A stretch of DNA of 64,000 bases. Origin: Streptomyces violaceusniger. GTDB lineage: Bacteria > Actinomycetota > Actinomycetes > Streptomycetales > Streptomycetaceae. Where the stretch lies: assembly GCA_005405945.1 (NCBI GenBank), contig BJHW01000001.1, positions 8,308,001 to 8,372,000 of the forward strand, read 5' to 3'. The notes under the pieces were generated by a model. It searched no databases. It was not told where the DNA came from and was given only the letters and a program-made list of their open reading frames with translations. Shown here piece by piece: positions 40,940-51,499 of the stretch (positions within the stretch are counted from its first letter, which is position 1; every line of letters begins with the position of its first letter). A program made the position numbers and the translations under genes.

Positions 40940-41691
40940 CTAGGCCGTCAGCAGGGCCGGGGGCGCCGCGCGGGCCTCGTCGTAGCGGGTCAGCAGGACG
41001 CGGGCCAGTTCCGGGGCGGGGCCCAGGACCGGGCCAGGAGGTCGGCGCCCGCGGCTTCGGCGCCGTGGGCGATGCGGTCGGGGAGGCGGCCCGGGGCGAT
41101 GACGTAGGGGGCCACGGCCACCCGGCGGACGCCCTCCGCGCGCAGGGCGCGGACGGCGTCCTCGGTGCGGGGAAGAGAAGCGGAGGCGAACGCGGGTCGC
41201 ACGGCGCACCATCCGGTGTGCCGCCACTCCCGCGCGATTTCAGCGATCACCGCGATCGCCTCCGGGTCGGTGGACCCCGCCGAGGCCAGGACGACCCCGG
41301 TCGAGGAGCGGTCGGCGGGGCGCAGCCCCGCCTCGTGCAGGCGGCGTTCCAGGGCGTCCACGAGCAGCGGGGACGGGCCCAGGACCTCGGCCTGGCGGAC
41401 GGAGAGGCGGGGGTGGCGGGCCGCGACCTCGCGCAGCACCGCCGGGATGTCGCTCTTCGCGTGGAAGGCGCGGGTCAGCAGCAGCGGGAGGGCGATCACC
41501 TCGGTGGCGTCCTCCGCGGCGAGGCGGGCCAGCACCTGCGGTACGCGCGGCGCGTTGAACTCCAGGAACGCCGCCTCCACCCGCAGCCCCGGCCGCAGCG
41601 ACCGCACCCGCGCGCGCAGCGCGCCGACGGTCGCCGCATGGCGGGGGTCGCGGCTGCCGTGGGCGATGATCAGCAGGGTCGGGGCAGACAT
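40940..41691 (-). CDS. Sirohydrochlorin ferrochelatase (CbiX/SirB family), frame broken near 41031
   Basis: Chelatase of about 250 residues that inserts iron into sirohydrochlorin to give siroheme, the cofactor of sulfite reductase. Two CbiX halves: LLIIAHGSRDPRHAATV with the active His, EFNAPRVPQVLARLAAEDATEVIALPLLLTRAFHAKSDIP, then VVLASAGSTDPEA and VRRVAVAPYVIAPG. Near the end one base is missing in G3 41031-41033; restoring it gives LLAPVLGPAPELARVLLTRYDEARAAPPALLTA and the TAG at 40940. As the last gene of the sulfur block it supplies cofactor for Sir. A cobaltochelatase role is less likely in this context. Confidence 0.87.
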
Positions 41692-41740: not shown

Positions 41741-42721
41741 TCAGCGCGCGCTCGCCAGCAGGCCGCGGCTGCGCAGCACCCGGCGCTCGATCGGGGCGAA
41801 GATCAGCAACTCGATGGCGATGCCGACGACGAGGATCAGCAGGATGCCGAGGAGCACCCCCGCCATATCGGAGTTGTTGCGCTGGTTCTCCAGGTACTGG
41901 CCAAGACCCAGGCCCAGGTCCGGGGACTTCGCGATGATCTCGGCGGCCATCAGCGAGCGCCACGAGAAGGCCCAGCCCTGCTTGAGCCCGGCGACGTAAC
42001 CCGGCAGCGCGGCGGGCAGCAGGATGTGCCGGGCGCTGACCAGACCGCGGGCGCCCAGGGTGCGTCCGGCGCGCAGGAAGAGCGGGGGCACCTGGTCGAT
42101 GCCGGCCACCAGCCCGTTGGCGATGGACGGGACCGCGCCCAGCAGGATGACGGTGTACATCATCTGGTCGTTCAGGCCCAGCCAGATCACCGCGGGCGGC
42201 ACCCAGGCGACCGACGGCAGCGACTGCAGCCCGGACAGGATCGGGCCGAGCCCGGCGCGGATGAACTTCACCCGGGCGACGACCAGACCCAGCGGGGTCG
42301 CGATCGCCAGCGCGATGAGGAAGCCGAACAGGCCGCGCGAGACGCTGGTCCAGATGATGTCGAGCAGCTCGCCCTGGAGCCACAGCTGGCGCAGCGAGTC
42401 CCAGACCAGCCCCGGGTCGGGCAGCTTGTAGTCGTCGGTGACCTTCGCGACGACGAGCACCTTCCACAGGGCCAGCACGACGGCCACGGCCACGATGGGC
42501 GGCAGCACCTTCTGGACCAGCACCTCGGCCGGTGAGACCCGCTTGGTCTGCACCGCGTCCAGGGCGTCCAGACCGGCCTCCAGGCCCGCCAGGTCCTGGG
42601 CGTTCCCCGCGCCCCGCTTCGCCGTGGACTTCTCCACGGACTTCTCCGTCGGCTGCTTCCCGCCGTCTCCGCCGTCGGCTTCCTCGACCGCGGCGCCGCG
42701 GGTGGTCTTACTGCTGGCCAT
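41741..42721 (-). CDS. ssuC: Aliphatic sulfonate ABC transporter permease
   Basis: Inner-membrane permease of 326 residues for sulfonate or related organosulfur import. The ATG at 42721 lies inside the 3' end of ssuB, indicating coupling. A charged 55-residue cytoplasmic N-terminus ([20 protein letters not shown], then KSVEKSTAKRG) is longer than in E. coli SsuC. About six membrane segments begin ILPPIVAVAVV-like at residue 73. The EAA-type loop is RAGRTLGARGLVSARHILLPAALPGYVAGLKQGWAFSW in fragments typical of SsuC/TauC. Specificity is inferred from the sulfur context. Confidence 0.85.
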   Translation of the reverse strand: MASSKTTRGAAVEEADGGDGGKQPTEKSVEKSTAKRGAGNAQDLAGLEAGLDALDAVQTKRVSPAEVLVQKVLPPIVAVAVVLALWKVLVVAKVTDDYKLPDPGLVWDSLRQLWLQGELLDIIWTSVSRGLFGFLIALAIATPLGLVVARVKFIRAGLGPILSGLQSLPSVAWVPPAVIWLGLNDQMMYTVILLGAVPSIANGLVAGIDQVPPLFLRAGRTLGARGLVSARHILLPAALPGYVAGLKQGWAFSWRSLMAAEIIAKSPDLGLGLGQYLENQRNNSDMAGVLLGILLILVVGIAIELLIFAPIERRVLRSRGLLASAR

Positions 42722-43531
42722 GGCGGCGGATCTCCCCACGCAGCTCTTCGGTGATCTCAACGGACAGGTCGGCGACGGCCGAGTCCTCGATGCGGCGCGG
42801 CTGCGGAATGTCCACCGACCACTCGCGGACGACCCGCCCCGGCCGGGAGGACAGCAGCACCACGCGCTCGGCCAGCCGGACGGCCTCGCGGACGTTGTGG
42901 GTCACGAACAGCACCGAGACGCCGGTCTCGCTCCAGATCCGGGTCAGCTCCTCGTGCAGCACATCGCGGGTGATGGCGTCGAGCGCGGCGAACGGCTCGT
43001 CCATCAGCAGCACGCTGGAGTCCTGCGCCAGCGCGCGGGCCAGCGCCACGCGCTGCCGCATCCCGCCGGAGAGCTCGTGCACCCGCTTGCCGTGGGCGCC
43101 GCTGAGCCGCACCAGCTCCAGCAGCCGCTCGGCCCGCGGCCTGCGGTCGGCGCGCGGCACACCGCGCAGCCGCAGCGCCAGCTCGATGTTCTTCCCCGCG
43201 GTCAGCCACGGGAACAGGGCGTGCTCCTGGAACATCAGGGCCGGCCGGCCGCCGTGGACCTCGATGGCCCCGAGGACGGCTTGTCCAGGTCGGCGATCAG
43301 ATTGAGCAGCGTGGACTTGCCGCAGCCGGAAGCCCCCAGGATGCAGACGAACTCCCCGGGCCGCACCTGGAGGTTGATGTCCTCGAGCACGGGCTGGGCC
43401 GCCCCGGGACGGCCGAAGGCCTTGTGGACGTGGGCGATCGATACGGATCCGGTGGCGTCGGCGGGGCCGGGGGAGCCCGCCGCCGCGGCGCTCGCCCGGT
43501 CGTCCTTCTCGGTGGTCAGTGCCGGGGACAT
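42708..43531 (-). CDS. ssuB: Aliphatic sulfonate ABC transporter ATPase, frame broken near 43268
   Basis: ATPase of about 274 residues energising sulfonate import. The ATG at 43531 follows AGGAGG. The first part has [11 protein letters not shown] and Walker [24 protein letters not shown]. Adding one base in the C4 run 43268-43271 continues [30 protein letters not shown] (Q-loop), then [18 protein letters not shown] (signature), [17 protein letters not shown] (Walker B) and [12 protein letters not shown] (H-loop). The MFQE-x-ALFPW motif is characteristic of SsuB/TauB proteins. It lies between ssuA and ssuC. Confidence 0.87.
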
Positions 43532-43599: not shown

Positions 43600-44757
43600 C
43601 TACTGGCTGCCGAGGCCCGCGGCGGAGACCGTCGGCTTGCCCTCGGCCTTCAGGACCTTGTTCAGCGGGCCCAGGTCGTAGATCCCCTTGAGATCGGGCT
43701 TCTCCAGGAGCCCCGCCTGGACCGCGTGGTCGGCCTCGGTGTTCAGCGTCGAGGCCAGAGGGTCGTCGGTGACCTGGATGGACTTCCACGCCGGGTCGAT
43801 CACCTCGGCGGGCAGCGGCTTGCCGGTCTCCTCCTTGAGCGCCGCGTTGGCCGCGTTCTTCGCCTGCTCGGGGTTGGCCTTGATGAAGGCGTTGGTCTTC
43901 ACCGAGCCGCGCAGCACGGCCTCGACGACCTTCGGGTGCTCCTTCAGGAACGACTGCTTCACGATCAGGTTGGTGATCACGAACTTCTTGTCCGGCCACA
44001 GCGAGGACTCGTCCAGGAGCACCTTGCCGCCGTCGGCGACCAGCTTGGACGCGGTCGGCTCGGGCACCCACGCGCCGTCGATGGCACCGGACTTGTACGC
44101 GTCGGGCGTCACCTTGTTGTCGCTGCGGACCACCGACACATCGCCCTTGCCGCTCTGGGCGTCGACCTTCCAGCCCTTGCTCTTGACCCAGTTGAGGAAC
44201 GCCACGTCCTGGGTGTTGCCCAGCTGCGGGGTGGCGATCTTCCTGCCCTTGACGTCGTCCAGCGTCTTGATCTTCTTCGGGTTGACCACGAGCTTGACAC
44301 CGCCCGAGACCGAACCAGAGATGATCTTGAGGTTGGAGCCGTGGGACTTCACATAGCCGTTGATGGACGGCGACGGGCCGATCCAGCCCATGTCGATGGA
44401 GCCCGCGTTGAGCGCCTCGATCTCCGAGGGCCCGGCGTTGAAGACGTACGGTGCGACCTTCGTGCCCTTGAGCTCCTGCTGGATCGGGCCGCCCTTGCGC
44501 AGCCCCACCAGCGCGGTGGCGTGGGTGAGGTTGGCGAAGTAGCCGACCTTCACCTTGTCCAGACCGTCGATCTTCTCACTCCCGGCCGCGGGGACCGCCG
44601 AGGATCCGGTGTCGTCGGACTTCTTCTGCGAGCCGTAGCCGCAGGCGCCCAGCGCGCCCACCAGCAGGGGGAGGGCGGCCGCCGCCGCCAGGATCCGGGT
44701 GCGGCGGCGGGGGTGCGTGGCTGGTCGCGGGGCGATGGGGCGGACGGCAGACGACAC
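43600..44757 (-). CDS. ssuA: Aliphatic sulfonate-binding lipoprotein
   Basis: Substrate-binding lipoprotein of 385 residues. The GTG at 44757 follows GAGAGGA. An arginine-rich signal leads to the lipobox LGAC at Cys39. The mature protein has [85 protein letters not shown] and [14 protein letters not shown] in pieces typical of SsuA/TauA/NrtA-type proteins. Organosulfur specificity rests on the operon context. It opens the transport part of the sulfur block, 200 bp after cysN, so an extra promoter there is possible. Confidence 0.87.
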
Positions 44758-44957: not shown

Positions 44958-46325
44958 TCAGAAGTCCCATCCCTCGTCGTCCCGCGCGGCCTCGGCGCCT
45001 TCCGCCGGCGCCGCGAAGGCGTCGCCCGCCATTCCGGCGGTGAGCGTGGTGCCGTCGGCGGGGTCGATCAGCAGGAAGGAGCCGGTGCGGCGCGAGGCGT
45101 CGTACGCGTCCAGCGCCAGCGGCTCGGAGGTGCGCAGCACGACCCGGCCGATGTCATTGGCGGCCAGCTCACCCGGCGCCGGGTGGTGCGACAGATCGGC
45201 CAGCGTCAGCCGGGACGGGATGTCCTTGATGATCGCCTTCACCGTGCGGGTGGTGTGCTTGAGCAGCACCCGGTCGCCCACGCGCAGCGGACGGTCGTGC
45301 AGATGGCAGACGGTGGCCTCGACGTCCCTGGTGGTCTTCGGCGCGTGGTCGCTCGGCGCGAGCAGGTCCCCGCGCGAGATGTCCAAGTCGTCGGCGAGGG
45401 TGAGGGTCACCGACTGCGGGGCCCACGCCACGTCCACCATCGCGCCCAGCGCGTCGATCCCGGTGATGGCGGACGTCCGGCCGGACGGCAGCACGGTGAC
45501 TGCGTCGCCGACCCGCAGCACACCGGAGGCGATCTGGCCCGCGTAGCCGCGGTAGTCGGGGTGCTCGGCGGTCTGCGGACGGATCACGTACTGCACCGGG
45601 AAACGCGCCGGGTCCTGGGACGGGTCGGTGCCCACCGGCACGGTCTCCAGGTGCTCCAGCACGGTCGGGCCGCCGTACCAGTCCATGTTCGCCGACGCGG
45701 TCACCACGTTGTCCCCGGCCAGCGCCGAGATCGGGATGGCGGTGATCTCGGGGACGCCCAGCGAGGCCGCGTAGGTGGTGAACTCCTCGGCGATGGCCGC
45801 GAAGACCGGCTCCGCGTAGTCCACCAGGTCCATCTTGTTGACGGCGAGGACCACATGCGGGACCCGCAGCAGGGCGGCGACCGCGGCGTGCCGCCGGGTC
45901 TGCTCCACCACGCCGTTGCGCGCGTCCACCAGGACGACCGCGAGCTCGGCGGTGGAGGCGCCGGTGACCATGTTGCGGGTGTACTGCACATGGCCGGGGG
46001 TGTCGGCGAGGATGAACCGCCGCTTGGGCGTGGCGAAGTAGCGGTAGGCGACATCGATGGTGATGCCCTGCTCCCGCTCCGCCCGCAGCCCGTCCGTCAG
46101 CAGCGCCAGGTCCGGCGCCTCCTGGCCACGGCTGCGCGAGGCGTGCTCCACGGCCTCCAGCTGATCGGCCAGCACCGACTTGGAGTCGTGCAGCAGCCGC
46201 CCGACCAGCGTGGACTTGCCGTCGTCCACCGAGCCCGCGGTGGCGAACCGCAGCTGCGAGGTGGCCGCGGACCGCTCCACGGCGGCCGCCGCGGCCTGCT
46301 CCTCGGAGGTCAGATTGCTCGTCAT
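44958..46325 (-). CDS. cysN: Sulfate adenylyltransferase subunit 1 (GTPase)
   Basis: GTPase subunit of ATP sulfurylase, 455 residues. With CysD it makes adenylylsulfate (APS) from ATP and sulfate. EF-Tu-like motifs: G1 GSVDDGKST, G2 region EREQGITIDVAYRYFATPKR, G3 DTPGH and G4 NKMD, followed by beta-barrel domains 2 and 3. There is no fused CysC kinase domain; that is separate here. The start is 2 bp after the cysD stop, so translation is coupled. Confidence 0.95.
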   Translation of the reverse strand: MTSNLTSEEQAAAAAVERSAATSQLRFATAGSVDDGKSTLVGRLLHDSKSVLADQLEAVEHASRSRGQEAPDLALLTDGLRAEREQGITIDVAYRYFATPKRRFILADTPGHVQYTRNMVTGASTAELAVVLVDARNGVVEQTRRHAAVAALLRVPHVVLAVNKMDLVDYAEPVFAAIAEEFTTYAASLGVPEITAIPISALAGDNVVTASANMDWYGGPTVLEHLETVPVGTDPSQDPARFPVQYVIRPQTAEHPDYRGYAGQIASGVLRVGDAVTVLPSGRTSAITGIDALGAMVDVAWAPQSVTLTLADDLDISRGDLLAPSDHAPKTTRDVEATVCHLHDRPLRVGDRVLLKHTTRTVKAIIKDIPSRLTLADLSHHPAPGELAANDIGRVVLRTSEPLALDAYDASRRTGSFLLIDPADGTTLTAGMAGDAFAAPAEGAEAARDDEGWDF

Positions 46326-46327
46326 CG

Positions 46328-47266
46328 TTAGAAGTACCCCTCGCGCTTGCGGTCCTCCATCGCGGCCTCCGACAGCTTGTCGTCGGCGCGGGTCGCACCC
46401 CGCTCGGTCAGCCGGGAGGCGGCTATCTCATCGATGACCTGCTCGATGCTCACCGCGTCCGACTCCACGGCACCGGTGCAGGACATGTCGCCCACGGTGC
46501 GGTAGCGCACCATGCGCCGCTCCACGGTCTCGCCGTCCTTCGGGCCGCCCCACTCACCGGGCGCCAGCCACATGCCGGCGCGCCGGAAGACCTCGCGCTC
46601 ATGCGCGTAGTAGATCCGCGGCAGGTCGATCTTCTCCCGGGCGATGTACTGCCACACGTCCAGCTCGGTCCAGTTGGACAGCGGGAAGACCCGGACGTGC
46701 TCACCGGGGGAGTGGCGGCCGTTGTAGAGCTGCCACAGCTCGGGGCGCTGCCGCCGCGGGTCCCAGCCGCCGAACTCGTCCCGGAGGGAGAACACCCGCT
46801 CCTTGGCGCGGGCCTTCTCCTCGTCCCGGCGGCCACCGCCGAAGACCGCGTCGAAGCGGTTCTTCTCGATGGCGTCCAGCAGCGGCACGGTCTGGAGCGG
46901 GTTGCGGGTGCCGTCCGGGCGCTCGCGCAGCCGGCCGTCGTCGATGAACTCCTGGACCGAGGCCACGTGCAGCCGCAGTCCGTGCCGGGCGACGGTGGCG
47001 TCCCGATAGGCGATGACCTCGGGGAAGTTGTGTCCGGTGTCCACGTGCAGCAGCGAGAACGGGACCGCCGCCGGGGCGAACGCCTTGAGCGCGAGGTGGA
47101 GCATGACGATGGAGTCCTTGCCGCCGGAGAACAGGATCACCGGCCGCTCGAACTCGCCCGCCACCTCGCGGAAGATGTGCACCGCCTCGGACTCCAACGC
47201 GTCCAGGTGCGCGAGCGCGTACAGGCCCGCGCCCTCGTCCGCGTTGATCGCCGTCACGGCCGTCAT
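46328..47266 (-). CDS. cysD: Sulfate adenylyltransferase subunit 2
   Basis: ATP pyrophosphatase subunit of ATP sulfurylase, 312 residues. PP-loop SGGKDSIVMLHLA, HVDTGHNFPEVI, FGGGRRDEEKARAKERVFS and the long C-terminal DAMEDRKREGYF-type end (EAAMEDRKREGYF) are characteristic. The ATG at 47266 (MTAVTAINADEG) is preferred over the upstream frame to 47407, which runs through the 121-bp gap after cysC. Confidence 0.95.
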   Translation of the reverse strand: MTAVTAINADEGAGLYALAHLDALESEAVHIFREVAGEFERPVILFSGGKDSIVMLHLALKAFAPAAVPFSLLHVDTGHNFPEVIAYRDATVARHGLRLHVASVQEFIDDGRLRERPDGTRNPLQTVPLLDAIEKNRFDAVFGGGRRDEEKARAKERVFSLRDEFGGWDPRRQRPELWQLYNGRHSPGEHVRVFPLSNWTELDVWQYIAREKIDLPRIYYAHEREVFRRAGMWLAPGEWGGPKDGETVERRMVRYRTVGDMSCTGAVESDAVSIEQVIDEIAASRLTERGATRADDKLSEAAMEDRKREGYF

Positions 47267-47387
47267 GCCGCGCCCCTTTCGTTCGCTCGGCTGCGGTAGT
47301 AGCTTCCCGTCGTATCGGCGGGGCTCGCCATGGGTACGGCGCCCGGGTGCGGGGAGCGCCGTGACGCGGTGGCCGCGCGTGCGTGGC

Positions 47388-47936
47388 TCACAGCAGGCCC
47401 CTTTCACTCAACAGCAACCGCACCTCGGCCGCCGACTCCTGCACGCTGTTCCTGTGGGTTTCGATGCGCAGATCCGGGTCGGCAGGGGCCTCGTAGGGGT
47501 CGTCCACACCGGTCAGACCCGAAATCTCGCCCGACGCCTGCTTCGCGTACAGCCCCTTGACGTCCCGCTCGGAGCACACCTCCACGGGCGTGGCCACGTG
47601 CACCTCCAGATACGGGGTGCCCTCGCGCTGGTGGCGCTTGCGCACCGCCTCGCGGCTGTCCGCGTACGGCGCGATGACCGGCACCAGCACCGTGACCCCG
47701 TGGGAGGCCAGCAGCTCGGCCACGAACCCGATCCGCTGGACATTGGTGTGCCGGTCCTCGCGGGAGAAACCCAGACCCGAGGAGAGGAACTCGCGGATCT
47801 CGTCCCCGTCGAGCACCTCCACCCGGCGGCCCTCGCCGCGCAGCCGCTCGGCCAGCGCATAGGCGATCGTGGTCTTTCCCGCGCTCGGCAGACCGGTCAG
47901 CCACACCGTGGCACCGGTGGTCGTGGGGGCGCTCAT
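47388..47936 (-). CDS. cysC: Adenylylsulfate kinase
   Basis: APS kinase of 182 residues that phosphorylates APS to PAPS. Walker A GLPSAGKTT, DGDEIREFLSSGLGFSREDR and VAELLASHGVTVLVPVIAPYADSREAVR are standard. The start at 47936 (MSAPTTTGATVWLTGLP) has AGGAG six bases upstream; an earlier ATG at 47960 overlaps the cysH stop (TGATG) and would add MAVDQENE. Since CysH has the iron-sulfur motif of APS reductases, PAPS made here may serve sulfation rather than reduction. Confidence 0.93.
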   Translation of the reverse strand: MSAPTTTGATVWLTGLPSAGKTTIAYALAERLRGEGRRVEVLDGDEIREFLSSGLGFSREDRHTNVQRIGFVAELLASHGVTVLVPVIAPYADSREAVRKRHQREGTPYLEVHVATPVEVCSERDVKGLYAKQASGEISGLTGVDDPYEAPADPDLRIETHRNSVQESAAEVRLLLSERGLL

Positions 47937-47959
47937 CTCGTTCTCCTGGTCGACAGCCA

Positions 47960-48661
47960 TCAGCCGTGCAGCCCGCATTCGGTCTTGGTGCTCCCCGCCC
48001 AGCGGCCGGACCGGATGTCCTCGCCCTCCAGAACCCGACGGGTGCAGGGCGCGCAGCCTATCGACGGATAGCCGTCCATCAGCAGGGGGTTGGTCAGCAC
48101 GCCGTGCTCGGCGACATAGGCGTCGACATCCGCTTGCGTCCAGCGGGCGATCGGGGAGATCTTCACCTTACGGCGCCGGGCGTCCCAGCCAACGACCGGG
48201 GTATCGGCGCGAGTTGGCGATTCGTCCCGGCGCAGTCCCGTGGCCCAGGCGTCATACTCCCGCAACCCCTCCTCGAGCGGCTGGACCTTGCGCAGCGCGC
48301 AGCACAGGTCGGGGTTACGGTCGTGCAGCCGGGGGCCGTGCTCGGCGTCCTGCTCGGCCACCGTCCGGCGCGGGGTCAGGGTGATGACGTTGACGTCCAT
48401 CACGGCCGCCACCGCGTCACGGGTGCCGATGGTCTCGGGGAAGTGGTAGCCGGTGTCGAGGAAGACGACGTCGACACCGGGGAAGGCGCGGGAGGCGAGG
48501 TGCGCCACCACCGCGTCCTCCATCGAGGAGGTGACGCAGAAACGCGAGCCGAAGGCGTCCGCCGCCCAGCGCAGGATGTCCAGCGCCGGGGCGTCCTCGA
48601 GCTCGCGGCCCGCCTTCTCGGCGAGCCCTTCGAGATCGGTGTCCTCAAGCCGTGTCGTCAT
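47960..48661 (-). CDS. cysH: Assimilatory (phospho)adenylylsulfate reductase, Fe-S type
   Basis: Thioredoxin-dependent reductase of 233 residues giving sulfite. P-loop-like FCVTSSMEDAVV, VVFLDTGYHFPETI, the CC pair in PDLCCALRKVQPL and CxxC in IGCAPCTRRV. These four cysteines mark the [4Fe-4S] type that prefers APS over PAPS; the C-terminal ECGLHG holds the catalytic Cys. The ATG at 48661 overlaps the end of the zinc-ribbon gene by 17 bp; upstream frame to 48832 is the shadow of that gene. Confidence 0.94.
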   Translation of the reverse strand: MTTRLEDTDLEGLAEKAGRELEDAPALDILRWAADAFGSRFCVTSSMEDAVVAHLASRAFPGVDVVFLDTGYHFPETIGTRDAVAAVMDVNVITLTPRRTVAEQDAEHGPRLHDRNPDLCCALRKVQPLEEGLREYDAWATGLRRDESPTRADTPVVGWDARRRKVKISPIARWTQADVDAYVAEHGVLTNPLLMDGYPSIGCAPCTRRVLEGEDIRSGRWAGSTKTECGLHG

Positions 48662-48842
48662 ATCGCCGTGCCCCTTCATCGATCGGGTCGCGCCGCAGGC
48701 CCTTGGCCAGCAGCCCGAGGAACGACAGGCGGAACGCGCGGTTGCAGGACGCGCATTCCCACGCGCCATGGCCCTCCTCCGAGGGACGCAGATCCTCGTC
48801 CCCGCAGTAAGGGCAGTAGAACGGCGCGGCACGCTCAGTCAC
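48645..48842 (-). CDS. Small zinc-ribbon protein in the sulfate reduction operon
   Basis: 65-residue protein with two CxxC knuckles: CPYC and CASC about 19 residues apart, forming a probable zinc ribbon (MTERAAPFYCPYCGDEDLRP, then WECASCNRAFRLSF). It is conserved in this position between sir and cysH in Streptomyces operons. Its role is unknown; delivery of sulfur or electrons, or regulation, are possibilities. It overlaps cysH by 17 bp and begins 31 bp after the sir stop. Confidence 0.8.
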   Translation of the reverse strand: MTERAAPFYCPYCGDEDLRPSEEGHGAWECASCNRAFRLSFLGLLAKGLRRDPIDEGARRYDDTA

Positions 48843-48873: not shown

Positions 48874-50568
48874 TCATGTGAGGGCCTCCTCCTCGGCCCT
48901 GGCCGCCCAGGTGGCGAAGCGCTCGCCGTCCTCGCGCTCCTCCTGGAAGCGGCGCAGCAGCCGCTCCACATAGTCGGGGAGCTCGGCGGCGGTGACCTTC
49001 AGTCCGCGCACCTTGCGGCCGAAGCCCGGCTCCAGGCCCAGGGCGCCGCCCAGGTGCACCTGGTAGCCCTCGACCTGCTCGCCGTTGTCGTCCATGACCA
49101 GCTGCCCCTTGAGACCGATGTCCGCCACCTGGATACGGGCGCAGGCGTTCGGGCAGCCGTTGAGGTTGATGGTGATCGGCTCGTTGAACTCGGGCAGCCG
49201 GCGCTCCAGTTCGTCGATGAGCCAGGAGCCGCGCGCCTTGGTCTCGACGATCGCCAGCTTGCAGAACTCGATACCGGTGCAGGCCATCGTGCCGCGCCGG
49301 AACGTCGACGGCTTGACCTGGAGGTCCAGCGCCTCCAGCCCGGCGACCAGCGAATCCACCTGGTCCTCGGTCACATCGAGCACGATCATCTTCTGCTCGA
49401 CGGTGGTGGTCAGCCGCCCGGAGCCATGGGCCTCGGCCAGGTCGGCGATCTTGGTGAGGGTGGCGCCGTCGACCCGGCCAACGCGCGGTGCGAAGCCCAC
49501 GTAGTAGCGGCCGTCCTGCTGGCGGTGGACGCCGATGTGGTCACGCCACTGCTGGACGGGCTGCTCGGGCGCCGGGCCGTCGGACAGCGGGCGCTTCAGG
49601 TACTCGTCCTCCAGCACCTGGCGGAACTTCTCCGGGCCCCAGTCGGCGACCAGGAACTTCAGCCGGGCGCGGGTGCGCAGCCGCCGGTAGCCGTAGTCGC
49701 GGAAGATGGCGACGACCCCGGCCCAGACCTCCGGGACCTCCTCCAGCGGGACCCAGGCGCCGAGCCGGACGCCGATCTTGGGGTTGGTGGAAAGACCGCC
49801 ACCGACCCACAGGTCGAAACCGGGGCCGTGCTCGGGGTGGCGTACGCCCACGAACGCGACGTCGTTGATCTCGTGGACCACGTCGAGCACCGGCGAGCCG
49901 GAGACCGCGGTCTTGAACTTGCGTGGCAGGTTGGAGAACTCCTTGCTGCCGATGTAGCGCCGGTGGATCTCCTCGATGGCGGAGGTGCCGTCGATGATCT
50001 CGTCCTCGGCGATCCCCGCCACCGGCGAGCCGATGATCACACGCGGGGTGTCACCGCACGCCTCGGTGGTGGACAGCCCGACGGCCTCCAGCCGCTTCCA
50101 GATCTCGGGCACGTCCTCGATCCGGATCCAGTGGTACTGGATGTTCTGCCGGTCGGTGATGTCGGCGGTGCCGCGCGCGAACTCCTCCGAGATCTCGCCG
50201 ACGACCCGCAGCTGCTCGGTGGTCAGCCGGCCGCCGTCCACCCGCACCCGCATCATGAAGTACTCGTCGTCCAGCTCCTCCGGCTCCAGGATCGCGGTCT
50301 TGCCGCCGTCGATCCCGGGCTTGCGCTGGGTGTACAGACCCCACCAGCGCATCCGGCCGCGCAGATCGGCGCCGTCGATGGAGTCGAAGCCGCGGTGGGC
50401 GTAGATCGTCTCAATGCGTGTCCGCACATTGAGACCGTCATCGTCCTTCTTGGTCTGCTCGTTGCCGTTGAGGGGGGTGAAGTGCCCCGCGGCCCACTGG
50501 CCTTCGCCGCGGTGGCGTCCGGCCTTGCGGCGGGGCGTAGCGCTTGCGCGTTCCGGGGTGGCAGCCAT
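48874..50568 (-). CDS. sir: Ferredoxin-dependent sulfite reductase (siroheme, 4Fe-4S)
   Basis: Reduces sulfite to sulfide, 564 residues. The ATG at 50568 (MAATPERASATPRRKAGRHR) starts the family N-terminus; an upstream frame to 50910 runs through the leader region. Two homologous halves carry RQNIQYHWIRIEDVPEIW (siroheme-contacting) and the cluster ligands C-x5-C in TMACTGIEFCKLAI plus C-x3-C in NLNGCPNACARIQ. NirA/SirA nitrite-versus-sulfite ambiguity is settled by the cys genes downstream. Expression is probably controlled by a leader-peptide attenuator 222 bp upstream. Confidence 0.94.
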   Translation of the reverse strand: MAATPERASATPRRKAGRHRGEGQWAAGHFTPLNGNEQTKKDDDGLNVRTRIETIYAHRGFDSIDGADLRGRMRWWGLYTQRKPGIDGGKTAILEPEELDDEYFMMRVRVDGGRLTTEQLRVVGEISEEFARGTADITDRQNIQYHWIRIEDVPEIWKRLEAVGLSTTEACGDTPRVIIGSPVAGIAEDEIIDGTSAIEEIHRRYIGSKEFSNLPRKFKTAVSGSPVLDVVHEINDVAFVGVRHPEHGPGFDLWVGGGLSTNPKIGVRLGAWVPLEEVPEVWAGVVAIFRDYGYRRLRTRARLKFLVADWGPEKFRQVLEDEYLKRPLSDGPAPEQPVQQWRDHIGVHRQQDGRYYVGFAPRVGRVDGATLTKIADLAEAHGSGRLTTTVEQKMIVLDVTEDQVDSLVAGLEALDLQVKPSTFRRGTMACTGIEFCKLAIVETKARGSWLIDELERRLPEFNEPITINLNGCPNACARIQVADIGLKGQLVMDDNGEQVEGYQVHLGGALGLEPGFGRKVRGLKVTAAELPDYVERLLRRFQEEREDGERFATWAARAEEEALT

Positions 50569-50789
50569 GGCGGTGTGTGTCCTTCTGAGCGGCTCAGGTG
50601 CGGCGGGTAGTGCGTGCGCGCGCACCGTCTGACCTGCGCATGCGCAGGCGGGCAGGGGGTACGGCGGTGACCGGTGCGGCATGCGGCGGGGAGTGTCGAG
50701 GCGTGCGCGCCCGCCCACGTCGTCGGGGGCGTGCGGAAGATGCGGTGGTGCTGCCCGGGGCCTTGATGACGGCCCTGTCGAGGTGCGGG
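50569..50789 (-). promoter_or_regulatory. Attenuator region between leader peptide and sir
   Basis: 221 bp of transcribed leader after the peptide stop. It contains the perfect palindrome CCTGCGCATGCGCAGG (50633-50648) and other GC-rich pairings able to form alternative hairpins. Proposed to couple translation of the leader's Cys codon to sir expression. Confidence 0.5.
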
Positions 50790-50873
50790 TCAGCCCGCCG
50801 GACAGATCGCGCTGGACATGCGGCCGAGGTCGACGTGGCGTCGACTCACCAAGGCAATTCCAGCTCGAGACAT
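50790..50873 (-). CDS. Leader peptide of the sulfite reductase operon (cysteine attenuator)
   Basis: A 27-codon frame, ATG 50873 to TGA 50790, ending SRRHVDLGRMSSAICPAG. The RRHVDL...SSAxCP pattern is the hallmark of the short leader peptides found before sulfur and cysteine genes in Streptomyces, in which stalling at the single Cys codon senses cysteine. It lies 222 bp upstream of sir in the same direction. An internal GTG (VSRRHVDL) is an alternative start; no strong Shine-Dalgarno precedes the ATG. Confidence 0.82.
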   Translation of the reverse strand: MSRAGIALVSRRHVDLGRMSSAICPAG

Positions 50874-50965
50874 GAGGGAAGCGTCGCATGGTGGTCTCTG
50901 ACGAGTCCACCTTTATCCATTATTCGGACGTATCTGTCTCGCAATGCAAGACGATGTGGTGTTGG

Positions 50966-51499
50966 TCACTCCTCTTCCGACGTCTTGACGTCGAACACCC
51001 TGAAGCCCCGGCGGCGGTAGTTGTCCAGCGCGTACGGCCCGTCCTTGCTGCAGGTGTGCAGCCACACCCGCTTGGTCGGCACCCGGTCCGGCCACCGGTC
51101 GGCCATGTCCCAGGCGCGGGAGGTCCCCCAGGTCAGCAGGTGCCCGCCGATGCGGCGGCCCCGGAAAGCGGGCAGCAGACCGAAGTACACGATCTCCACC
51201 ACACCCTCGTCCTGGCCCTCCAGCTCGATGTACCCGGCCGGGGTCCCGCGCTCGTACGCCACCCAGGTCTCCACTCCGGGCCGGTGCAGATGCTCCTCCC
51301 ATGCCTCCCGCGACCACACCAGCCGGTCGGTCCACGACACGTCCGAGCCCACCGCCGTGAAGAGGAAGTGGCTGAACTCGGGGCTCGGCACCTCGGCCCG
51401 GGAGATCCGCACCCCGGCCTTGGCGGGCGGCTCCTGCGCCGGGCTGAGATCGGAAGGAGCGGTCTGCTCCAGGTGCCAGGTGGTCACGGTGGTGGTCAT
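50966..51499 (-). CDS. GNAT family N-acetyltransferase
   Basis: 177 residues. FSHFLFTAVGSDVSWTDRLVW, YIELEGQDEGVVEIVYFGLLPAFRGRRIGGHLLTW and YALDNYRRRGFRVFDV give the standard GNAT order with the acetyl-CoA loop RGRRIGG. The substrate is unknown. It reads in the same direction as, and just upstream of, the sir leader; the sir promoter must lie in or near the 92-bp gap. Confidence 0.87.
   Translation of the reverse strand: MTTTVTTWHLEQTAPSDLSPAQEPPAKAGVRISRAEVPSPEFSHFLFTAVGSDVSWTDRLVWSREAWEEHLHRPGVETWVAYERGTPAGYIELEGQDEGVVEIVYFGLLPAFRGRRIGGHLLTWGTSRAWDMADRWPDRVPTKRVWLHTCSKDGPYALDNYRRRGFRVFDVKTSEEE

Follow-up and report, generated by a model that had tools for sequence, protein, structure and literature searches.

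We have found that the short ORF lying in front of the sulfite reductase gene (sir) of Streptomyces violaceusniger is, as far as its sequence and conservation tell, a genuine leader peptide, conserved and of a type already known. A role as cysteine sensor is likely, and it is quite probable that a ribosome stalls on the single Cys codon of this ORF and controls sir in cis. The conserved ORF stands before sir, at a promoter-like spacing from its upstream elements; its Cys codon is fixed as UGU, and the spacer that follows is C-rich and has no intrinsic terminator. The element is already covered by a curated model, NF042934, which states no signal or mechanism. New here are the UGU rule and, across the family, a C-rich layout that is predicted to be leaderless.

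The leader ORF and the genes behind it

The window analysed, meaning the whole stretch of 64,000 nt, carries the leader ORF and the genes behind it on the minus strand (Table 1). The ORF starts with ATG, and three codons separate its single Cys codon (TGT) from the TGA stop, so the 27-residue frame with one Cys codon near its end is present just as the sequence-only reading had claimed. That reading placed the ORF 222 bp ahead of sir; the arrangement stands, with a corrected distance of 221 nt between the leader stop and the sir start (50568). When the 64-kb window was scanned for the motif together with a correctly spaced -10 element, a single match was obtained, which is the leader ORF, and the reversed window gave none.

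Ten genes follow in the same direction, from sir to a CbiX-family gene, a count that had been given correctly before, with the ssuB frame being broken. The block agrees with SCO6093-SCO6102 of S. coelicolor, according to PMC11356490. The break in ssuB concerns one base in a run of G, and it could be a sequencing error or a truly broken gene.

Table 1. Features of the sir leader region and of the ten-gene block, in window coordinates
Feature	Position	Strand	Basis
Possible operator, dyad GTCTTGCATTGCGAGAC (-79 to -63)	50936..50952	minus	GTCYCG-N5-CGRGAC, window 11 of 12
Place of the conserved NdgR-type box (-56 to -42)	50915..50929	minus	only 10/15 positions match in window
Inferred -35 element TGGACT (-36 to -31)	50904..50909	minus	TGGACT in 128/149; 18 nt from -10
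Inferred -10 element GACGCT (-12 to -7)	50880..50885	minus	CACGCT in 129/149, T at -7 in 149/149
Leader ORF, 27 aa, MSRAGIALVSRRHVDLGRMSSAICPAG	50790..50873	minus	ORF read, NF042934 match, kept before sir in 149/149
Cys codon UGU, inferred sensing codon, three codons before stop	50802..50804	minus	TGT in 149/149 sir leaders, 79/79 named loci
Spacer of 221 nt, C-rich, G-poor, candidate Rho-loading region	50569..50789	minus	C/G > 1 in 149/149
Shine-Dalgarno core AAGGA of sir	50580..50584	minus	sequence
sir, sulfite/nitrite reductase type, 564 aa	48874..50568	minus	reductase-model matches all below cut-off; 80 Streptomyces relatives
65-aa ORF, position of SCO6101	48645..48842	minus	only a weak zinc-binding match, below cut-off
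cysH (longest frame; true start probably further in)	47960..48832	minus	NF002537 262.5 bits, cut-off 154
cysC	47388..47978	minus	TIGR00455 199 bits, cut-off 138.7
cysD (longest frame)	46328..47407	minus	TIGR02039 458.3 bits, cut-off 396.6
cysN	44958..46325	minus	TIGR02034 548.1 bits, cut-off 336.1
ssuA-type sulfonate-binding protein	43600..44757	minus	TIGR01728 172.1 bits, cut-off 163.5
ssuB-type ABC ATPase, frame broken near 43268-43271	42708..43531	minus	ATPase profile split over two frames
ssuC-type permease (longest frame)	41741..42760	minus	PF00528 72.3 bits, cut-off 26.4
CbiX-family gene, tenth of block	40990..41691	minus	PF01903 148.7 bits, cut-off 22

Against NF042934 ("putative leader peptide", cis_reg_atten, NCBIfam) the leader ORF scores 33 bits, above the cut-off of 27, its residues 7-24 aligning with positions 2-19 of the 19-position profile; a genome-wide search of its own genome returned it with 31.4 bits. 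In keeping with this family, the ORF is short and stands immediately ahead of a metabolic operon. Members above cut-off are found in 13 of 13 genus genomes. Since NCBI has a model for the leader, the earlier remark that it is too short for routine gene calling does not hold in that simple form. The related model NF042936 (Ms4527A) gives 28.2 bits, below its cut-off of 45.

Within the genus, the leader peptide is matched at E <= 0.01 in every one of the 150 genomes searched (own included); in 149 the match reaches E <= 4.8e-8. The weakest genome (G120, best E 0.00242) was left out, and the genomes with a strong match, own included, form the set of 149 loci used below. Their leaders all start with ATG and are 27 aa long in 145 cases, with two of 26 aa and two of 28 aa. 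Seven residues of the 20-residue core (Arg7, Arg8, Val10, Asp11, Arg14, Ser17, and Cys20) are kept in every copy. Leu12 changes among them, and a fixed motif pattern recognises 142 of the 149 leaders, a scored search all 149. The gene sir lies directly downstream in 149/149, behind a spacer of 60-263 nt (median 135). The best 80 named sir relatives are all titled Streptomyces and 79 of them carry the leader; in the 80th, the sequence ends 116 bases upstream of the match. Because the start codon is ATG in 149/149, the length 27 aa in 145/149, and the NF042934 cut-off is exceeded, the ORF does not seem to be incidental.

The leader family and its UGU codon

Searching the own genome with NF042934 at E <= 10 gives 23 matches, of which eight exceed the cut-off. 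Sixteen leaders, the one of sir included, have the full motif, all with TGT at the motif Cys. Behind the 15 others we have found genes for a PALP protein (cysteine-synthase type), cysteine dioxygenase, rhodanese, flavin reductase, five luciferase-like monooxygenases, DUF4395, and an FAD-linked oxidase, besides transporters (an ABC permease, two binding-protein families, and a sodium:dicarboxylate-type symporter). These genes belong to families that one would expect in sulfur metabolism or transport, several of them being broad families linked to sulfur by their context. A PF14340 gene lies behind one own-genome leader; a work by Lyubetsky et al. (2014) on PF00480/PF14340 proteins may deal with leaders akin to these. 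In one stretch (L423-L425; C2:1740-1780 kb), several luciferase-like monooxygenase genes lie together with at least four family leaders having a fitting promoter in a strict scan, each with TGT at the motif Cys, and six NF042934-search matches fall there.

The choice of the Cys codon follows a rule. All 149 sir leaders use TGT and none TGC, while the downstream sir genes, in the portion that was sequenced, have 7 TGT and 217 TGC (7/224). A wider family set of 130 loci was taken from the own genome, twelve more genus genomes, and a phylum sample. The motif D[LFYH]x[RT]x5C is present in 120 of them, with TGT as the Cys codon in 116 and TGC in 4 (L215, L240, L241, and L279). In L240 and L279 the motif Cys is UGC and another Cys, at D+2 or D+4, is UGU, as if the sensing codon had shifted position. 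Counting distinct DNA sequences, the motif Cys is TGT in 97 and TGC in 4 (97/101), whereas the other Cys codons of the same family peptides are TGT in 39 and TGC in 93 cases (Fisher p 8e-28, a nominal value since leader copies are related by descent). Against a mere effect of kinship, the leaders within one genome precede different genes and differ in sequence. Codons ending in A or T make up 96% at the motif Cys of non-sir leaders, compared with 0 to 34% at the remaining codons of the motif. Bacteria have one tRNA-Cys (GCA) that reads both Cys codons, and for this reason UGU would be the weaker, wobble-read codon; we suggest that it could serve as the better sensor of starvation.

In seven leaders of the TSRRHIDLLRVCSA type (L047, L244, L250, L254, L265, L283, and L285), the UGU Cys is replaced by Ser or Gly, encoded by AGT, AGC or GGC. 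Three of them that were checked stand before genes with a glutathione-transferase C-terminal domain.

Outside the genus the peptide is more divergent. In a class-wide search it was matched in 152 of 394 genomes at E <= 0.01, the 40 strong matches being all of the same genus and the best other genome having an E of 1.3e-5. Searching the class with NF042936, 73 of 148 genomes match at E <= 0.001, 5 of them above its cut-off. Twenty loci from this search, belonging to other or mixed families of the class, were inspected: the N-terminus of sir follows in 15/20 and TGT occupies the motif Cys position in 18/20. The exceptions are L332, with GGG at the motif Cys and TGT two codons earlier, and L335, with TGC. 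The Ms4527A family of NF042936 shares with our leader the motif [HR][VI]D[LF]xR and the place before a sulfite reductase gene. The Streptomyces leader is predicted to be leaderless, and the mycobacterial one is reported to be so. They differ in that the Streptomyces leader has one Cys, and Ms4527A a Cys cluster in a Cys-rich C-terminus. As for NF042934, it is a protein model and cannot see UGU, which is a feature of the DNA.

A small ORF before nirA/Msmeg_4527 is known in mycobacteria from PMC4633059, and PMC9031893, PMC13236596, and PMC9094748 credit Canestrari et al. (2020) with showing cysteine-responsive attenuation by such leaderless ORFs of M. smegmatis. Comparison gives good support to the claim that a cysteine-sensing leader stands before sir: the NF042934 match, the genus-wide synteny, the recurrence of the motif ahead of sir in further families of the class, about 15 more leaders before sulfur-type genes in the own genome, and the mycobacterial counterpart before nirA, the group of which is reported to be cysteine-responsive.

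Predicted promoter, spacer and possible readout of a stall

Upstream of the ORF, the inferred -10 and -35 elements are kept at a constant distance from the ATG, and A stands at -11 in 144 of the 149 sir leaders. From this conserved spacing, transcription is expected to start at or beside the ATG, and the mRNA of the sir leader is predicted to be leaderless, a prediction based on conservation and spacing. A scan with a generic E. coli-type sigma-70 consensus called no promoter at the leader of the window. Among the paralogues, 111 of 113 have a candidate start; a full TANNNT is found at the -10 place (one base of slack allowed) in 50 of these 111, against a background of 0.8%, and two of the three key -10 bases in another 43, against 29%, the background being random ATG/GTG of the same loci.

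The spacer between leader and sir has a composition of its own. In the 78 nt from the leader stop (running into sir where the spacer is shorter) the median C/G is 1.89. Upstream it is 1.07 and in the promoter region 1.19; the leader has 0.96 and sir 1.06. Paralogue leaders behave alike, with C/G > 1.2 in the 60 nt past the stop in 108/113 and in 26/113 for an upstream control. The C-rich, G-poor spacer is thus a candidate Rho-loading region by its looks, the excess of C over G being a sequence signature only. We found no terminator-like site in the window, and TTTT occurs in just 29 of 149 spacers. Attenuation of the ten-gene block, which the sequence-only reading took to be implied, may occur, but its classical form is unlikely, since it needs an intrinsic terminator. 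No Rfam family, riboswitches included, is matched at E <= 1 in 50400-51100. The stretch from leader to sir does not fold better than its shuffles, 79 in 100 of which do as well or better (z 0.75), there are no covarying alternative hairpins in the leader, and the spacer alignment gives no consensus hairpin beyond 3 pairs. The commonest 8-mer of the 149 spacers is GAAGGACG. A CAGGTCA-like element is also present in the spacer of 92 of 149 relatives, in most cases 43-46 nt upstream of where sir starts.

We infer from this layout a translated leader on which a stalled ribosome answers to cysteine, with termination by Rho as the readout. Transcription would start at the leader's own ATG, so that the leader would come first on the mRNA. 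With plentiful cysteine, the ribosome would read the single UGU, reach the stop three codons on, and depart; the naked C-rich, G-poor spacer would then load Rho, and most transcripts would stop before sir. When cysteine, and with it charged tRNA-Cys, is scarce, the ribosome would wait on UGU with a footprint that extends over the stop codon into the beginning of the spacer, and Rho could not load or catch up. With Rho kept off, sir-cysH-cysC-cysD-cysN would be made, and probably also ssuABC and the CbiX gene. Among the points that raise doubts about this model, a single Cys codon is few for a classical attenuator, and the mycobacterial group is described as a case of translation attenuation, not of Rho (PMC13236596).

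Translation attenuation is a possible reading for Streptomyces as well, which we hold with some reserve: the ribosome-binding site of sir would be kept free of mRNA folding by the stalled ribosome, leaving transcription uncut. The motif and the downstream gene are those of Ms4527A, whose group is so described (PMC13236596). In 96 of 142 loci the sir Shine-Dalgarno sequence falls within a hairpin stem of 4 bp or more, while shuffles give a mean of 34 and a maximum of 46, an excess which fits translational control instead of, or besides, Rho. However, this hairpin is local and lies 60-263 nt from the leader stop, and placing a ribosome at the Cys codon lowers the computed cost of opening the Shine-Dalgarno sequence by just 0.95 kcal/mol (75 of the 149 loci), in a computation without shown power. 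In these 75 loci a stalled and a terminating ribosome do not differ (-0.07), and the gain exceeds 1 kcal/mol in 33. The computation has no positive control, since 8 class loci were tried and the 6 that gave a result, five being of the Ms4527A type or close to it, showed no consistent effect. As readout of the stall, we place Rho slightly ahead of translation attenuation, and it is possible that both act together.

The stall itself may have another cause. In a TnaC-like arrest, the nascent peptide R-x-[HV]-[VI]-D-L-x-R-x4-A-x-C would hold the ribosome as its C-terminal Cys is or is not decoded, the codon being less important than the peptide. TnaC differs from a cysteine leader in having tryptophan as its signal and in stalling at the stop codon. 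We regard such an arrest as rather unlikely here. In 96 distinct non-sir leaders, Arg14 is encoded by CGC (59), CGG (15), CGT (14), AGG (5), and CGA (3), the Asp by GAC (77) and GAT (19), and Leu12 by CTG (52) and CTC (36), and the Cys keeps a fixed distance from the Asp. Motif residues kept while their synonymous codons vary indicate that the peptide itself is under selection, as the arrest would require. A pure peptide effect, however, leaves the preference for UGU over UGC at one position unexplained, and the seven motif-bearing leaders with Ser or Gly at the Cys position would lack the very residue in question.

The same free synonymous change, with the motif recurring in unrelated leaders, speaks against the idea that there is no leader peptide at all and that DNA operators and a promoter account for the conservation of an incidental ORF. 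With the constant ATG, the nearly constant length, and the match to the NCBI model, we consider this very improbable, although the sir leaders are indeed frozen at the nucleotide level and their upstream elements are conserved. Leu is TTG in 141/149, Ser is AGT in 144/149, and Gly is GGA in 136/149, codons that each make up less than 5% in sir genes. An RNA structure within the sir leader, considered as a possible cause of these three codons, gains no support: RNAalifold gives a consensus fold of 15 pairs, 0 of which show compensatory change, a count no different from that of shuffled letters.

As for the upstream elements, the best match to the NdgR-type box lies at -56 in 131 of 149 relatives, and 133/149 score at least 12 of 15, against 14/149 for shuffled sequences. 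The consensus was taken from PMC4340878, which has NdgR bound upstream of SCO6102 and cysI raised by NdgR in S. coelicolor; SenR binding is also reported, in PMC4991794. Cysteine control could therefore act via NdgR, the activator of this operon in S. coelicolor according to PMC4340878. The dyad GTCYCG-N5-CGRGAC has its best match at -79 in 140/149 and reaches at least 11 of 12 in 128/149, against 0/149 when shuffled. A similar dyad, GTCTCR-N5-CGACAC, stands upstream of rhodanese leaders (e.g. L044, L260, L262-L264, L266, and L269).

Hungry-codon frameshifting at UGU, giving a leader-Sir fusion, can practically be dismissed as a general mechanism: the sir frame is open through the leader in this window, but it is open from the Cys codon in just 50 of 149 loci and closed in 99, and its phase relative to the leader is random (54, 47, and 48).

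Comparison with other leaders and meaning for sulfur assimilation

We found no report, in the open-licence papers searched, of a cysteine leader before Streptomyces sir, nor of a UGU rule in cysteine leaders of this type. The eight leader peptides that an S. lividans transcriptome study lists in its available text include none that depends on cysteine or precedes sir. The 2005 survey by Seliverstov et al. (PMC1262725), as far as its accessible text goes, has cysteine leaders only in Mycobacterium, P. acnes, and B. longum. Like the sir leader, these are small ORFs that precede cys genes, carry Cys codons close to their stop and lack a terminator, and Rho was proposed for them; they differ in having runs of Cys codons, and no Streptomyces cys leader is described in that text. 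PMC1262725 also supplies the analogy with the Escherichia coli tna operon, in which the position of a ribosome on a short leader decides the access of Rho. The classical trp-type attenuators of Streptomyces and Corynebacterium are likewise leader peptides read out by the ribosome, with the difference that they have terminator and antiterminator hairpins (PMC1262725) and the sir leader has none. More distant is uORFC-8-2, before cysS in Rhodobacterales (PMC8632094). It is also a uORF with Cys codons for which attenuation was proposed, and it differs by two tandem Cys codons, a dominance of UGC, an intrinsic terminator, and its belonging to another phylum.

Going beyond the sir locus, we put forward, tentatively and as a proposal that may well fail, that the actinobacterial VDLxR family senses cysteine via one strictly placed, wobble-decoded UGU, nine residues past the Asp of a conserved nascent peptide. 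The sensitivity would then depend on which Cys codon is used and in what peptide context, and not on how many Cys codons there are, and one sensor would serve many transcripts, behind 16 leaders in this genome, with Rho as the readout in Streptomyces and not hairpin switching.

If the UGU rule is right, it would show cleanly, in a genus rich in GC, that a single synonymous codon is under selection, and would offer a simple test of why one synonymous codon senses starvation better than the other. The C-rich spacers would be a candidate set of Rho-controlled leaders in Streptomyces. If the leader acts as we suggest, the sulfate assimilation of Streptomyces has, besides NdgR, a cysteine sensor that works through the ribosome where the operon begins, and this sensor would be common to many sulfur transcripts.
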